Part shown: piece by piece, positions 56,088 through 64,000 of the stretch
Position numbering within the stretch: position 1 is the stretch's first letter
How the letters are laid out: each line of letters begins with the position of its first letter
Origin: Pseudothermotoga sp.
GTDB taxonomy: Bacteria; Thermotogota; Thermotogae; Thermotogales; DSM-5069
Direction: 5' to 3'
DNA length: 64,000 bases
Assembly (NCBI GenBank): GCA_025060105.1
Contig: JANXCS010000006.1
Location: 84,601-148,600 of the forward strand
Notes under the pieces: generated by a model
The model's input: only the letters and a program-made list of their open reading frames with translations
Database searches by the model: none
What the model was told of the DNA's origin: nothing
Made by a program: the position numbers and the translations under genes

Positions 56088-57413
56088 GTGAAGAGACTTG
56101 GGATCGTTGGATTTGGTGCTGCAGCAATAGGTTTTCTGGAGGGCTTGATAGAAACGGGGAAAATTAACGATTACGAGATTACCGTATTCGAGAAGGGAAA
56201 AGATCACATGCACAACACAATTTCCGGTGTTCGTATGGACGGCAAAATCTTCATCAGTAGAGGCATGGGTGGTGAGCTGGATGTGCCGTTGGATATACAG
56301 TACAAGATCGTCGAGCTTTATTTAACCCACTCTGGTTACAAACCGACTTTGAGAGATAAGAGCAATTTCATCGAGTATCTCAAGTCGTTCGAGAGGAACG
56401 GAAGAAAGATAGAGTTCGGTGAATCTTTTTCCAGTGAAGAAGTTTATAAAAGATTCTACGATCACGGTTTCGAGCCAGTGAAAGCTTATTTCTTTCATCT
56501 CGGAACGGATGTGCTCAGAGAGACTAACAACAACTTGTTTGAATATTTCACTTTTTTCAAGAACATCCAATTTTTGTTCAACACGATTGTTGAAGATATT
56601 GAGCTTGGTCCAAAACACAAAGTTGTAGCAAACAAGGGTGAATTCACATTCGACGAGTTGGTCATCTCAGTTGGTCGAAGTGGGCACAAGTTGATGGATC
56701 GTATCAAGGAGAAGTATCCTCAACTTGTGAAAGAAAACTACTACGTTGATATAGGTATCAGATATGAACTCCCAAACCACGTGATGGAAGAGTTTTTCGA
56801 CATGTACGAAGTGAAAGTTAGGTACAGAACGAGAACAGGTTATATGTGTAGACTCTTTTGCCAAAATCCTTCCGGCAAAGTAACTTTGGAGAAGTACGAT
56901 GAATTCACAACAGTGAACGGTTATTCAGACACTTATCACAAAACTGATAACACTAATTTTGCTGTTTTGGTGACGACACGCTTTACAGAACCATTCAAAG
57001 ATCCAACAGGTTACGGAAAAAACCTTGCCAAGCTTGCGAACATACTGGCTGGTGATAAAGAAAAAGTCATCCTGCAAACTTATGGAGATTTCAAAGAGTA
57101 CAGAAGGACGAAGAGAATTGGGAGAGTATATCCCACGTTGAACGGAAACAGCTTCATTTTGGGAGATGCGAACCTTGTTTTTCCTTCCAAGATAAGGGAA
57201 TCTTTAGTTGATTTCATCGACAATCTCGATCGAGTCATCAAAGGCGTAGCTTATTTCGATAATCTCCTCTACGCAGTAGAAGTGAAATTCTATTCAAACA
57301 AATTCTGTAACGACATCGTCGAGAATTTGCACGTTATAGGTGATTGTAGCGGTTGGACCAGGTCCATCCAGTACGCTACCGCCATGGGTTACATGAGAGC
57401 TATTCAAAGTTGA
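56088..57413 (+). CDS. FAD-dependent dehydrogenase-like flavoprotein
   Basis: Cytoplasmic flavoprotein of 441 residues. The N-terminal dinucleotide motif is LGIVGFGAAAIGFLEGL with Glu in VFEKG. FDELVISVGRSGHKLMD is the second FAD-contact region, and the C-terminal VIGDCSGWTRSIQYATAMG is the third. The middle of the protein resembles the COG2509 group of uncharacterised FAD-dependent dehydrogenases. GTG start after GGAGGG. It stands alone, convergent with the transglutaminase-like gene (1 bp gap). Substrate unknown. Confidence 0.7.
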   Translation: MKRLGIVGFGAAAIGFLEGLIETGKINDYEITVFEKGKDHMHNTISGVRMDGKIFISRGMGGELDVPLDIQYKIVELYLTHSGYKPTLRDKSNFIEYLKSFERNGRKIEFGESFSSEEVYKRFYDHGFEPVKAYFFHLGTDVLRETNNNLFEYFTFFKNIQFLFNTIVEDIELGPKHKVVANKGEFTFDELVISVGRSGHKLMDRIKEKYPQLVKENYYVDIGIRYELPNHVMEEFFDMYEVKVRYRTRTGYMCRLFCQNPSGKVTLEKYDEFTTVNGYSDTYHKTDNTNFAVLVTTRFTEPFKDPTGYGKNLAKLANILAGDKEKVILQTYGDFKEYRRTKRIGRVYPTLNGNSFILGDANLVFPSKIRESLVDFIDNLDRVIKGVAYFDNLLYAVEVKFYSNKFCNDIVENLHVIGDCSGWTRSIQYATAMGYMRAIQS

Positions 57414-59555: not shown

Positions 59556-60485
59556 TCACTTCACGTAGGTGTAAGCATCTTTCATTTTCACAAGAGAGCT
59601 TAGATGCTTAGAAACATACTGACCACAGTTACTACCGATGTTGTTTTCTTCAAGTTCACCCACACTGAGGATGACTTCAAATCCGTGTTCCACTAGACTT
59701 TTGACGAAGCTTGCGTGTGACTGAGGCATACCATTCGAAACGTCTACATCCGAAACAATGTTGTTTTTCACAGCGTTGTAGGTGGGATTCACTGGGGTTA
59801 TCTTGATCAAAAACTTGTCGGGAGAGAAAAGTTGAATGATTCTGCTTGATTCGACAATAGCTTGGCGGCTAAGCGCAAAGTTGAGCGTGATTTTCCTGTC
59901 ATCCTTTTCAACGAAATTTTCACCGAATTCTGCGATTTGTTCCAACGTCCATTTTCTCACAGGCATAAGTTCATCCCTTTGTCTTTCGTCTGTAGAGTGA
60001 ATAGAAAACTGTAACTGAAACCTGCCTCTGTAATAACGATTTTTCACATTCAGTAATTCTTCGAAGAATCTATCGCACCCTGCTGGAGCGATCGTTGACA
60101 CGGATGGTAAAAGATTGTCATACTTCGATAACTGCTCGAGTGCAATGAGCACCTCTTCATTCAAAGCAGGTTCACCAACCCTAGCGAACTGAACTTTGAA
60201 CTTTTTTGTTCTGACTATCCCTTCCGGAAAGAATTTCAGTACAAGAAAATCTATCTGTTCAAGGATCTCATCGGCAGTGAGTTTTCCTTTATAGAAGCCT
60301 CCAGCATCGCACATCTTGCAACCTACTGGGCATCCGTTCATGGTGGATACTATCAAGACCCACTTTTCACTGCGTGAAAGCGGTGGTTGCAAAGATTGAA
60401 CAAACTCAACGATATTGCCTCTGATCGTTTCACCCACATAAACACTCGCCAGATCAGTTTTTCCGTATTCAGCCAGAAGTTTCAT
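59556..60485 (-). CDS. RlmN/Cfr-like radical SAM enzyme
   Basis: A 309-residue radical SAM protein. The Fe-S motif is GCPVGCKMCDAGG (CxxxCxxC, about residues 52-59), followed by KGKLTADEILEQI as in RlmN. The C-terminus has IGSNCGQYVS, matching the catalytic methyl-Cys region (ACGQL) of RlmN/Cfr methyl synthases. It is shorter than RlmN (about 350-380) and lacks much of the N-terminal RNA-binding part, so it may modify a different RNA or another substrate (inference). The ATG at 60485 overlaps the flavoprotein stop (ATGA), so the two are made together. Confidence 0.82.
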   Translation of the reverse strand: MKLLAEYGKTDLASVYVGETIRGNIVEFVQSLQPPLSRSEKWVLIVSTMNGCPVGCKMCDAGGFYKGKLTADEILEQIDFLVLKFFPEGIVRTKKFKVQFARVGEPALNEEVLIALEQLSKYDNLLPSVSTIAPAGCDRFFEELLNVKNRYYRGRFQLQFSIHSTDERQRDELMPVRKWTLEQIAEFGENFVEKDDRKITLNFALSRQAIVESSRIIQLFSPDKFLIKITPVNPTYNAVKNNIVSDVDVSNGMPQSHASFVKSLVEHGFEVILSVGELEENNIGSNCGQYVSKHLSSLVKMKDAYTYVK

Positions 60486-61270
60486 TGCTCGTTCACCATC
60501 CTCATACACGCTTCGATAGCCTGACCGACTGCTATACTCATTTGACGAAACCCACCCGAAGCATCCCCAACGATGTACACATCATGTGTCTTCTCAGTCA
60601 CGAAACCAACGTTCGGCATTCTACCGATGCATATCAAAAGAGCATCGAAGTGGTAAGAAGTCTTGTTGGTTTTGATTATTAAATTCTGCTGTTGTCCAAC
60701 TTCAATTATAGGTTCTTTTTCATGGTAGACGATCGGAGAGTTCTTGGCAAGTTCAACGAGCCTAGGTAAGGCTCTGATCGTGCTGGATCTGTTGAAGATA
60801 TGAACATTTTTTACGCCTTTTTCCGCAGCTTTCAAAGCACCGTCGAAAGCAGCATCACCCGCACCATATATCGCCAGAGAATCCATACTTTTTGGCAAGT
60901 GTTTGAACTCGTACACCACTTTTTCACAAACTTCAAACTCGGTGATTCTCTTGGGTAACGTTCCACTCGCTACCAAAATTTTGTCGTACTCTTGCTCGAA
61001 GCTTTTTGTACGTAGTTTCTTACCCTTCACCTCCAAAACTTCTTCGTGAACGATTTCGATGGAAAAGTATCTCAAATTCCTCTGCAGCAGCTCAACGATT
61101 TTCTCACCAGGGCAAGGATCGAAGAAAGGTATATTCTCAACCCTCCAAGCATTCGCGATCAAACCTCCAACTTGATCTTTCTCGAACAGATCTAGTTGTA
61201 TTCCATACCTCTTCAAAAAAATTGCTGCGGCAACACCAGCTGGACCGGCCCCAACTATCGCAACGCGCAC
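60482..61270 (-). CDS. FAD/NAD(P)-dependent oxidoreductase, thioredoxin-reductase fold without CxxC
   Basis: Flavoprotein of 262 residues. The FAD motif is VAIVGAGPAGVAAA, the NAD(P) motif is AIYGAGDAAFDGALKAA and the C-terminal FAD contact is VYIVGDASGGFRQMSIAVGQAIE. The fold matches thioredoxin reductase, but the redox CxxC of the NADPH domain is absent: residues around 100-130 contain a single Cys in EVCEKVV. It must therefore pass electrons elsewhere. GTG start at 61270, 6 nt after GGAGGA and inside the end of the hydrolase gene. It overlaps the radical SAM gene by 4 nt and is a candidate electron donor to it. Confidence 0.82.
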   Translation of the reverse strand: MRVAIVGAGPAGVAAAIFLKRYGIQLDLFEKDQVGGLIANAWRVENIPFFDPCPGEKIVELLQRNLRYFSIEIVHEEVLEVKGKKLRTKSFEQEYDKILVASGTLPKRITEFEVCEKVVYEFKHLPKSMDSLAIYGAGDAAFDGALKAAEKGVKNVHIFNRSSTIRALPRLVELAKNSPIVYHEKEPIIEVGQQQNLIIKTNKTSYHFDALLICIGRMPNVGFVTEKTHDVYIVGDASGGFRQMSIAVGQAIEACMRMVNEQ

Positions 61271-61827
61271 AGCACTTCCTCCGTACTCGCAATTATCGCA
61301 AAACCATGTGCCAAATTTTTCAGTGATGAGAAATGATACCAATCTTCACGTTCATAACAAGCATCGCACACGACCACAACGTCAAAATTCCTAACGAACG
61401 CACTCCTGGCAGTGGTCTCGACACACAAATGTGTCCGCACACCAGTTATGAAAACTTGGTTCACGCCGTAGCTTCTCAAAATATCTTCTAACCTCGTGTT
61501 GTAAAAAGCATCGTACGTGTCTTTCTCTATCTTTATTGCACCCTCCAAACTGAGGCAAGGTTCGGCCTCGTACGGTTCGAGGTCATCGTTCCACCACTCT
61601 TTCATTCTCTGACTGTTCGAAACGTGAATTGTGAAAACAATGGGTAAACTCTTTCGGCGGAAAGTTTCCATTAAAGCTTGCAAATTGGATAGAATCTTTT
61701 CGACACCCGGTAAGTATGCCCTACCAGAAGGATGACAGAAGTACTTTTGAATATCAACGATGATCAAAGCAGGTGAAAGAATTTTCAAAGGGTGTCTTTG
61801 TCTCTCTTTCCAGAAGAATTGACTCAC
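61255..61827 (-). CDS. Isochorismatase-like cysteine hydrolase
   Basis: Amidase-type hydrolase of 190 residues. The triad is Asp in LIIVDIQKYF (about 24), Lys in IEKDTYDAF (about 102) and Cys in GVRTHLCVETTARSAF (about 135). Members include nicotinamidases and carbamoyl hydrolases; the metal-binding residues of PncA were not seen. The GTG start has AGGGGG directly upstream. It is the first gene of a coupled trio, overlapping the flavoprotein gene by 16 nt. Confidence 0.85.
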   Translation of the reverse strand: MSQFFWKERQRHPLKILSPALIIVDIQKYFCHPSGRAYLPGVEKILSNLQALMETFRRKSLPIVFTIHVSNSQRMKEWWNDDLEPYEAEPCLSLEGAIKIEKDTYDAFYNTRLEDILRSYGVNQVFITGVRTHLCVETTARSAFVRNFDVVVVCDACYEREDWYHFSSLKNLAHGFAIIASTEEVLCALR

Positions 61828-61877: not shown

Positions 61878-62903
61878 TTAGAAAAGTTCTTTCCTTTCAC
61901 TTATACTTGAGAACACCAAGTTGTGCAAAAGTATTCTCACTCTTGTTATCTCGTCTTCGTGTCTCTTTATGAACCCTTTATTGGTTAAAAATATAACGAA
62001 CAAACCATCTTCACGACACCAAATTGTGGTTCCTGTGAAACCACTGTGCCCGAAGGCTTTCTCCGTCAAGACATCACCGCTACTTGTGTTACTCGATGGA
62101 CACATCCAACCAAGATGCCTCTTGCCGTTGGATGCTTCCACAACCGTTTGCGTGAAGAGTCGTACCACCTGCCTTGGAACTATCTCACCTTTGAGCAAAG
62201 CACTCATAAATCTAAAGAGATCTTTCACGTTGGAAAACAGTCCAGCATTCCCGCTCACGCCCCCTAGATAATAAGCGAGTTCGTCATCTGGAAAACCGAC
62301 GAGCCTTTTTCCCTCCCTCTCAGAAGTTGGGGCAATGTCTTGATTTTGACCTGGTGAAAATTTTGTGTTTTGCATACCTAACGGTTCGAAAATATCATAG
62401 ACAAAATCATCGAAAGACCGCTGTGCTATTTTCTCAATTATTGCCATGAGTGTTATGAAATTCAAACAGGAATAGATGATCTTTTTTCCAGGTTCCTCGA
62501 TCGGCTGTATTTTCAAAATTTCTCCCAGCAGTTCTTTTCCTTTCAAGTATTTCCAGAGTTCCGAGTAAGGTTGCATGCCTGAAGTGTGCGATAAGAGTTG
62601 TTTTATCGTGATATCTGATTTTGGTTTTTCTGTGTTTATAAACCTTCCAACTGTGTCATACAAGTGCAGATAGCCTTCAGAAAAGAGTTTCATCACAGCT
62701 GTCGTTGTGGCCACAACTTTTGTTAAACTGGCAAGATCATAAATCGTATCGATGCTGGTTCTTCTTTCAAAATCGAGTGTTCCGTAAGCTTTTTCATAGA
62801 CGATTTCGTCTGGCCAGCCTATCAACAGCGTAGCTCCTGGGTAAATCTTGTTCAAATGTTCTTCCACGATTCTGTCGACGTTTCTGAACAACTTCTCACT
62901 CAT
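61878..62903 (-). CDS. Beta-lactamase-fold (class C) serine hydrolase
   Basis: Penicillin-recognising enzyme of 341 residues: SxxK in LASLTKVVA (Ser about 59), YxN as YSCLN (about 145), and HSG in AFGHSGFTG (about 262) replacing KTG, as in the esterase/D-aminopeptidase group. There is no signal peptide, so it is probably cytoplasmic and acts on an imported D-amino-acid peptide or ester. It is 6 bp downstream of oppF, in the same operon, which supports a peptide-derived substrate. Confidence 0.87.
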   Translation of the reverse strand: MSEKLFRNVDRIVEEHLNKIYPGATLLIGWPDEIVYEKAYGTLDFERRTSIDTIYDLASLTKVVATTTAVMKLFSEGYLHLYDTVGRFINTEKPKSDITIKQLLSHTSGMQPYSELWKYLKGKELLGEILKIQPIEEPGKKIIYSCLNFITLMAIIEKIAQRSFDDFVYDIFEPLGMQNTKFSPGQNQDIAPTSEREGKRLVGFPDDELAYYLGGVSGNAGLFSNVKDLFRFMSALLKGEIVPRQVVRLFTQTVVEASNGKRHLGWMCPSSNTSSGDVLTEKAFGHSGFTGTTIWCREDGLFVIFLTNKGFIKRHEDEITRVRILLHNLVFSSISERKELF

Positions 62904-62909
62904 TTCATT

Positions 62910-63878
62910 TCACCCCTTGTACAGAAAACAAGCAACCCTGTGATTCTCGCTTCCGTTCAATTGTGGTCTTTCCTTTTTGCAACGCTCGAACTTATAAAAA
63001 CACCTCGTAGAAAAGGCGCACCCAATGGGAGGATTCACTGGACTTGGAGGTTCTCCAAAAAGTCTCAATTTTGAAAGTTTTCTTTGGTTTGGATCCCAGC
63101 TCGGGACGGCTGACATGAGCGCTCTTGTGTAAGGATGAACAGGATTTTCAAAAATCTCTGTGGCATCACCTTCTTCCACTACATTCCCTAAATACATCAC
63201 GATCAGCTTGTTGCTCATATGATATACCAGATCGAGATTGTGGGAGATAAAAAGGTACGACATGTTGTATTCTTCTCTCAGTTCTTGAAGCAAATTCACT
63301 ATTTGGCTTTGCACAGAAACGTCCAATGCCGATGTGGGTTCATCGCAAACGATCAGTTTTGGTTTCAAGGCTATAGCCCTAGCTATAGCAATTCGTTGCC
63401 TTTGACCACCTGAAAACTCGTGTGGATAACGCGATAGATGTTCTCTATGGAGACCCACCTTTGCTAGAAGTTCCACAACGTAATCTTCCATCTCTTTTCT
63501 AGATTCGAACACTCTGTGTGCCTCTAGAGGCTCTCTCACCACGTCTGCTATGGTCATCCTCGGATCAAGTGAATTGAAAGGATCTTGAAATATCATCTGA
63601 ACCGTTCTTCGAAAGAGTTTTTCGATATTTTTCGAAGACCTTTTCGTCACATCCACACCTTGAAACTCCAATCTTCCAGAGGTTGGCTGAAGTATCCTCG
63701 CCACAATTCTCCCAAGTGTTGTCTTACCACAACCAGATTCGCCCACAACTCCTACAGTCTCGTTCTCATTTATGTCTAAGTTTATCTCCTCAAGCGCTCT
63801 GACCCAGCCTACGATCTGCAGAAAAACTCCGGCCCTAATGGGGAAATATTTTTTAACTTTTCTCAGCGAGATTATCAT
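62910..63878 (-). CDS. Oligopeptide ABC transporter ATPase, OppF/DppF family
   Basis: ATPase of 322 residues with Walker [11 protein letters not shown]-loop IFQDPFNSLDPR, signature [15 protein letters not shown], Walker B LIVCDEPTSALD and H-loop LFISHNLDL. The C-terminal domain has CAFSTRCFYKFERC. The ATG at 63878 overlaps the oppD stop (TGATG) and is 7 nt after AGGTG; an in-frame GTG lies one codon upstream. It is the partner of the truncated oppD at the window edge. Confidence 0.94.
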   Translation of the reverse strand: MIISLRKVKKYFPIRAGVFLQIVGWVRALEEINLDINENETVGVVGESGCGKTTLGRIVARILQPTSGRLEFQGVDVTKRSSKNIEKLFRRTVQMIFQDPFNSLDPRMTIADVVREPLEAHRVFESRKEMEDYVVELLAKVGLHREHLSRYPHEFSGGQRQRIAIARAIALKPKLIVCDEPTSALDVSVQSQIVNLLQELREEYNMSYLFISHNLDLVYHMSNKLIVMYLGNVVEEGDATEIFENPVHPYTRALMSAVPSWDPNQRKLSKLRLFGEPPSPVNPPIGCAFSTRCFYKFERCKKERPQLNGSENHRVACFLYKG

Positions 63879-64000
63879 CACATATCACCTTCATAAAGCC
63901 AGCAACAGACGGTGTGACCATTCATTTGTATTTCTTTTGGTTCCTTTTCTCGACACACTTCCATCATCTTGGGACACCTGGGGTGGAATCTGCAACCACT
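63878..64000 (-). CDS. Oligopeptide ABC transporter ATPase, OppD/DppD C-terminus (cut by window edge)
   Basis: The last 40 codons of an OppD-type ATPase, read on the minus strand from the window edge. They carry the cysteine motif CRFHPRCPKMMEVC and end with CCWLYEGDM. The stop overlaps the oppF start, showing an oppD-oppF operon that continues outside the window. Confidence 0.88.
   Translation of the reverse strand, partial: SGCRFHPRCPKMMEVCREKEPKEIQMNGHTVCCWLYEGDM

Follow-up and report, generated by a model that had tools for sequence, protein, structure and literature searches.

We report the computational analysis of three overlapping genes encoded in a window of 64,000 nucleotides from Pseudothermotoga sp. 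(positions 84,601 to 148,600 of contig JANXCS010000006.1, assembly GCA_025060105.1), where the window is the whole stretch of DNA that was analysed. The trio runs from 61827 to 59556 on the minus strand, and its open reading frames (ORFs), coordinates and overlaps have been checked. ISO (61255..61827, minus strand, 190 amino acids, start codon GTG) is an isochorismatase-like cysteine hydrolase that matches PF00857 with 134.7 bits. FLV (60482..61270, minus strand, 262 amino acids; PF07992, 68.7 bits) is a protein binding flavin adenine dinucleotide (FAD) and NAD(P), with the fold of thioredoxin reductase and without its CxxC. RSAM (59556..60485, minus strand, 309 amino acids from its ATG; TIGR00048, 64 bits) is a short, RlmN-like protein of the radical S-adenosylmethionine (SAM) type. 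ISO and FLV overlap by 16 nt (61255..61270) and FLV and RSAM by 4 nt (60482..60485, reading ATGA), both on the minus strand. The GTG start of FLV has GGAGGA 6 nt upstream, the mechanical ORF starting earlier, with TTG at 61342; for RSAM the mechanical start is an alternative GTG at 60509, while the position of the ATG is the start in most of 24 relatives (alignment A1). The source genome measures 1.92 Mb and is 99% complete, and Pseudothermotoga provides the nearest relatives of RSAM that carry a name. An earlier note on this DNA had described three genes with these two overlaps, encoding an isochorismatase-like hydrolase, a flavoprotein lacking CxxC and a radical SAM protein with a short N-terminus and a C-terminal NCGQ; the ORF coordinates agree with it, and the description is borne out by the PF00857 match, by alignment of FLV to the thioredoxin reductase 4zn0, and by the RSAM match to TIGR00048, which begins at position 84 and is accompanied by SNCGQ.

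In RlmN, according to excerpts of PMC9692996 and PMC13001441, E105 deprotonates C355, which accepts a methyl group from SAM; a second SAM then gives rise to a radical, the S-methyl group becomes a methylene radical that adds to the base, and C118 breaks the resulting crosslink, probably acting as a base. The same excerpt of PMC9692996 has the cysteinyl radical reduced afterwards by a reductant that is 'currently unidentified', and describes the class A radical methylases with two conserved cysteines. We compared these residues between 110 members of the RSAM family and 25 RlmN rows (24 from a set of 50 genomes and the window genome's own; one RlmN row is truncated). The CX3CX2C motif of the [4Fe-4S] cluster (C52, C56 and C59; 60309..60332, minus strand) is present in 110/110 family members, and so is the equivalent of the methyl carrier C355, which in RSAM is C287 of the SNCGQ stretch (59625..59627, minus strand); the carrier loop reads CGQ in 99 members, CGM in 6 and CGL in 5. 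E27 (60405..60407, minus strand), which corresponds to E105, the base for the carrier cysteine, is found throughout both groups (110/110 and 25/25). At the position of the resolving C118, in contrast, RSAM has I45 (60351..60353, minus strand): 24 of the 25 RlmN rows have cysteine here, the truncated row being gapped, whereas none of the 110 family members does (I 78, L 17, M 12, V 2, T 1). Beyond the columns of CX3CX2C and the carrier, no cysteine column of the RSAM family reaches 30%. Judged by alignment, the residues for the first half of the RlmN chemistry are present in RSAM.

The protein is also set apart from RlmN as a whole. Its N-terminus falls short of that of RlmN by some 60-70 residues (counted from the GTG, residue 24 aligns to position 84 of TIGR00048), and its 64 bits compare with a curated cut-off of 290 for that RlmN equivalog model. 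The predicted structure (pLDDT 93.2) opens with beta-strands, beginning at the RlmN beta-hairpin that follows the HhH domain, the latter being absent. Among PDB chains the best sequence match is to Cfr (9p0p, E 2e-8), and the best fold matches are the RlmN-type structures 6fz6 and 3rfa (TM 0.69-0.70). In a tree of 41 family rows (every second of 80 loci, and the window) and 24 RlmN rows (the truncated one omitted), the two groups lie on opposite sides of a single, very long branch with SH-aLRT 100. The window genome carries a separate full-length rlmN (389 bits), as do 24 of 50 other RSAM genomes at scores over the cut-off. The automatic names of RSAM relatives, taken from one source, are in part '23S rRNA (adenine2503-C2)-methyltransferase' and in part only 'radical SAM protein'. 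Since the trio is conserved, RSAM lies outside RlmN and the genome has a second, full-length rlmN, it is plausible that the target differs from the known substrates of RlmN and Cfr. The earlier note had suggested as much, and this part of it stands, RSAM forming its own clade beside a separate rlmN and keeping its two neighbours; what it had overlooked is the reduction of the catalytic cysteine pair to one.

For FLV, the predicted model (pLDDT 95.2) finds thioredoxin reductases as its best Foldseek matches, with TM values of up to 0.86, and in the alignment to 4zn0 the Cys-Ala-Ile-Cys stretch is replaced. Its richest cysteine column, counted as for ISO over rows longer than 150 amino acids, is occupied in 45 of 102 sequences and is the sole FLV column to reach 30%. 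A role as electron donor for RSAM, which the earlier note had put forward, is plausible. ISO has the triad D25, K102 and C135, of which all three residues are invariant in 25 rows of alignment A4 and C135 in 80/80 relatives. Its best PDB match is 3eef, related to N-carbamoylsarcosine amidase (E 2.5e-18), and it scores under the cut-off of all six NCBIfam models listed. A second cysteine stands beside the catalytic one in 69 of the 80 relatives, the window protein having C135-V136 (CV); a WW pair is invariant in the 25 rows of A4 and a YDAF motif is also conserved. The neighbouring cysteine and the WW pair may mark a substrate class.

The three genes belong together. In 103 genomes of the class Thermotogae, surveyed with thresholds of E up to 1e-60 for RSAM, 1e-40 for ISO and 1e-50 for FLV, RSAM is present in 44, ISO in 45 and FLV in 45; both partners occur in all 44 RSAM genomes, and among the 59 genomes without RSAM there is one with ISO (G007, ISO alone) and one with FLV (G004, a weaker match of 172 bits). 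Fisher's test gives p ~2e-28, a value that overstates independence since the genomes are related. In each of four genera (g4, g5, g8 and g13) one or more genomes have none of the three genes beside congeners having all three, and we therefore conclude that the trio is lost or gained as a unit. Outside the phylum, 50 RSAM genomes whose titles do not name Thermotogota were drawn from the 80 highest-ranking genome loci; with thresholds of 1e-30 for ISO and 1e-50 for FLV, ISO was found in 48 and FLV in 49. These counts rule out chance gene neighbours. The partners are also retained when they are no longer adjacent: G109 and G120 have RSAM alone, with ISO and FLV side by side on another contig; ISO is on a different contig than RSAM in six genomes (G105, G114, G119, G125, G146, G148); and several class genomes keep an unlinked ISO (for example G066, G067, G068 and G070). 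The association is therefore more than positional.

Gene order was read from the best 80 of 454 RSAM relatives. FLV lies upstream on the same strand in 73 of the 75 loci with at least 1000 nt upstream of RSAM, and both ISO and FLV do so in 61 of the 71 with at least 1700 nt, which, with the 44/44 class genomes, answers in the affirmative the earlier note's proposal to look for this neighbourhood in other genomes. In 34/75 loci FLV and RSAM have the spacing of the window's 4-nt overlap (d = -3), where RSAM is taken to begin with its profile match and not at a checked start codon. FLV is likewise found in 27 of 29 further class loci with 1500 nt upstream, and in the two misses (L084 and L085) FLV and ISO appear farther upstream once more DNA is read (L113 and L114). 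The 80 loci fall into 17 named phyla, 63 being bacterial, 14 archaeal and 3 unassigned, many of them metagenome bins. Distance-matrix correlations over 74 loci are 0.72 for RSAM-FLV, 0.70 for RSAM-ISO and 0.86 for FLV-ISO, and 999 permutations never exceeded 0.17. The archaeal RSAM rows are interspersed among bacterial rows in the tree, a pattern that transfer of the trio between bacteria and archaea would fit. The spread is patchy, the trio occurring in 2 of 150 genomes of the class of G118 and 2 of 294 of the phylum of G135, the centre genome being counted in each case. On plasmids RSAM has no match at E 1e-20, and on viral contigs no relatives of A1, the RSAM alignment, were confirmed.

Several loci depart from the simple arrangement. 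In relatives that we take to be of the genus Thermotoga, judging from named RSAM relatives (L083, L089, L095 and L115), a metallo-beta-lactamase-fold gene stands between FLV and RSAM (L115:8289-8870), and in L114, presumably of the same genus, a TnpB-like transposon gene, named by eye, is inserted there (L114:6519-7763); in Thermotoga maritima MSB8 the trio genes may be TM0133, TM0134 and TM0136. In a Zixibacteria genome, the only one of the 50 checked with FLV present and ISO not found, RSAM is closely preceded by two FLV-type genes with a lipoyl synthase-like gene between them (L062:1682-2566). Named by eye, the gene before ISO resembles adenosine deaminase in L034 and L052, and the one after ISO-FLV resembles adenine deaminase in L225; these cases are too few to build on. 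In the window, a serine beta-lactamase-fold hydrolase and an OppF/DppF-like ABC ATPase are encoded on the strand of the trio (61878-63881), the hydrolase gene ending 50 nt before ISO, and the two may share a transcript with the trio. On the opposite strand, positions 56088-57413 encode a 441-aa FAD-dependent protein with a PF21688 C-terminal domain and no NCBIfam match. We considered this gene as a fourth part of the system and rejected it, since 1201 ORFs from 112 loci contained no match to it at E 1e-8.

Our preferred reading, which we hold tentatively and with confidence just short of even, is that the trio is a co-inherited three-protein system in which RSAM would methylate a substrate carbon via a single carrier cysteine, FLV would supply electrons from NAD(P)H and ISO would cut an amide-type bond. 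By the residues it retains, E27 would deprotonate C287 and a first SAM would methylate it; a second SAM, cleaved at the [4Fe-4S] cluster, would yield a radical that activates the S-methyl group, which would add to an sp2 carbon as in RlmN. Because the resolving cysteine is absent in RSAM, the release and reset steps must presumably differ from those of RlmN. We are less sure of how they would proceed: another base might release the product, and C287 might be re-reduced with FLV electrons delivered either to the cluster or to a C287 thiyl radical. A flavoprotein without CxxC would be a natural candidate for such delivery, and FLV is predicted to draw the electrons from NAD(P)H. The bond hydrolysed by ISO would, to go by its family, be an amide, a ureide or the like in the precursor or the product. 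The target is likely a small molecule, which we prefer because the RNA-binding N-terminal domain is absent and because small amides and ureas are the substrates of the named relatives of ISO. A bolder version, which we consider doubtful, would have one-cysteine RlmN-type methylation of a free small molecule with FLV replacing the resolving cysteine, both driving product release and resetting the carrier, in a fixed three-enzyme pathway to a new methylated metabolite exchanged between bacteria and archaea.

A number of observations weigh against the three-protein methylation system. Variants of RlmN and Cfr without C118 or C105 stall as protein-RNA crosslinks, according to excerpts of PMC9692996 and PMC13001441, and because of this a natural lack of C118 could mean a different reaction. 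The neighbours beyond the trio show no consistent pathway, and no common pathway emerged from the surroundings of unlinked ISO copies in 16 stretches. Several genomes have ISO at a distance from RSAM, so that the two do not necessarily share a substrate. Among the 50 genomes outside Thermotogota, G142 yielded no ISO and G128 neither ISO nor FLV; in G128 the RSAM contig (L042) has only 562 nt upstream of RSAM. One of the 44 class genomes (G059, of the same genus as the window) has a broken RSAM with intact ISO and FLV; the RSAM pieces (L129, L130) lie about 76 kb apart, with FLV and ISO beside the N-terminal piece, and the split would be a rearrangement or an assembly fault. Many of the genomes are metagenome bins, in which absences and titles can be wrong.

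We regard RNA as an unlikely target; in this reading RSAM would methylate an adenosine or other base of tRNA or rRNA, receiving electrons from FLV, and ISO would play an auxiliary part. The RNA methylases RlmN and Cfr are the nearest relatives of RSAM by sequence and fold, and the beta-hairpin with the E105 equivalent is retained; however, there is no N-terminal HhH domain, to which PMC13001441 attaches importance for the binding of RNA by Cfr and RlmN. Known isochorismatase-like hydrolases, moreover, use small molecules, and the patchy distribution (2/150 and 2/294) speaks against RNA modification. We set aside the idea that the trio makes the nucleoside N-330 of 16S rRNA, for whose spread it is too rare; Haloferax, the source of N-330, belongs, we assume, to the phylum of G135 in which 2 of 294 genomes were positive. 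An excerpt of PMC2584109 reports N-330, there still unsolved, from Archaea and many Bacteria.

The absence of C118 in 110/110 members, by which half of the class A machinery is gone, could instead mean that RSAM is not a methylase. C287 would then act as a hydrogen-atom donor or thiyl relay in some other radical reaction, whose substrate would be prepared or finished by FLV and ISO. The hydrophobic residue found at this position in 109/110 and the very long branch between RSAM and RlmN are in keeping with such a role, but the CG[Q/M/L] loop and the deprotonating glutamate are kept in 110/110, and a plain hydrogen donor would not need these; we think this improbable.

Less probable still is that the trio belongs to one-carbon (Wood-Ljungdahl) metabolism, with a role, for example, in the maturation of a cofactor or a protein for the CODH/ACS-corrinoid pathway. 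Of the 50 RSAM genomes outside Thermotogota, 18 encode ACS (PF03598), 6 of them on the same contig within ~15 kb of RSAM (G118, G124, G127, G147, G148 and G149; by record title four Chloroflexota, one Acetothermia and one Thermoplasmata); at L028 the trio, by eye, shares one strand-run with RACo-, AcsE-, MetF- and CooC-like genes. ACS was, however, not found in 32 of the 50 nor in any of the 103 Thermotogae-class genomes, and we reject the pathway as a requirement while accepting the linkage in 6/18 as real. The trio is found in or near Wood-Ljungdahl clusters at L028, L037, L039, L041, L055, L073 and L076 and in the six genomes just named, with CooC-, CODH-, AcsE-, MetF- and RACo-like neighbours identified mostly by eye. 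A part in making the cobamide lower ligand 2-methyladenine was also rejected, CobS showing no correlation with the trio (18 of the 44 class genomes that have it, 24 of the 59 that do not, p = 1) and not being found in the window genome. Comparison with the PADLOC-DB models gives no support for an anti-phage defence system: RSAM and ISO have no match, and the match of FLV is confined to 32 residues of LmuA (E 1.2e-5). Finally, that RSAM is an ordinary rlmN paralogue beside two unrelated metabolic genes, as the automatic rRNA methyltransferase name in one source would have it, is refuted by its score of 64 against 290 bits, the missing C118, the separate clade, the separate full-length rlmN, the 44/44 co-occurrence and an order conserved across many phyla, and we give it next to no credence.

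A side finding concerns phage relatives of RlmN. In a split branch of RlmN-like proteins on viral contigs (L164:5839-6801, L165:5839-6761 and L167-L218) the radical SAM ORF ends before the strand of the carrier cysteine, and a separate ORF of ~40 codons carries this cysteine in the sequence ACGQL. The radical SAM ORF was found in 53 of 54 loci; CGQ or CGN occurs in its last 80 residues in 0/53, and glycine occupies the C118 position in 53/53. The carrier ORF is present in 50/53 loci, sometimes 0.3-1.8 kb from the radical SAM ORF: it was found within 700 nt downstream in 42, farther downstream in 8 and not at all in 3, or in 39, 7 and 3 of the 49 distinct loci, four of the 53 being second windows on the same contigs. 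The ~40-aa ORF is possibly a detached methyl-carrier peptide. Two of the carrier peptides, compared with PHROG, gave no match, and we found no literature on a split RlmN. In the four phage regions read, which were not searched by profile, no gene is annotated as a hydrolase or flavoprotein of the ISO or FLV type.

Both the function of C118 and the origin of the electron can be put to a direct test in a natural family that has the carrier but not the resolver cysteine and is accompanied by a flavoprotein and a hydrolase. Furthermore, the trio is a sign that many uncultured lineages may make a methylated compound or macromolecule, the enzyme for which goes in part under the name of a 23S rRNA methylase. 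Our literature search found nothing on the trio or the RSAM family, which is weak evidence of absence since it covered open-licence papers only.

Among known systems, RSAM most resembles RlmN, the class A radical SAM methylase that forms m2A in 23S rRNA and tRNA and its best fold match, with which it has in common the CX3CX2C motif in a single radical SAM domain, the E105 beta-hairpin, the radical SAM barrel and the C-terminal CGQ loop with the carrier cysteine; it differs in lacking the resolving C118 and the N-terminal HhH domain, in forming a separate clade and in keeping two partner genes. Cfr, the m8A methylase of 23S rRNA and the best PDB sequence match, requires C105 to resolve its crosslink and carries an HhH domain, according to an excerpt of PMC13001441, and both are absent in RSAM. 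The phage RlmN-like family phrog_24834 and the split phage branch are 29-36% identical to RSAM over the matched part, and at the C118 position these relatives show Thr in Versailles phage and Cys in Stenotrophomonas phage ANB28 (both by eye) and Gly in the split branch. FLV shares the two-domain FAD/NAD(P)-binding fold of bacterial thioredoxin reductase without the redox CxxC, and this absence is compatible with a predicted role like that of the thioredoxin reductase-like ferredoxin/flavodoxin-NADP reductases, which use NAD(P)H to reduce an Fe-S or flavin protein. ISO, lastly, has the Pfam family and the D-K-C triad of the isochorismatase-like cysteine hydrolases, such as 3eef, RutB, biuret hydrolase and nicotinamidase, from which it is distinguished by its conserved WW and YDAF motifs.

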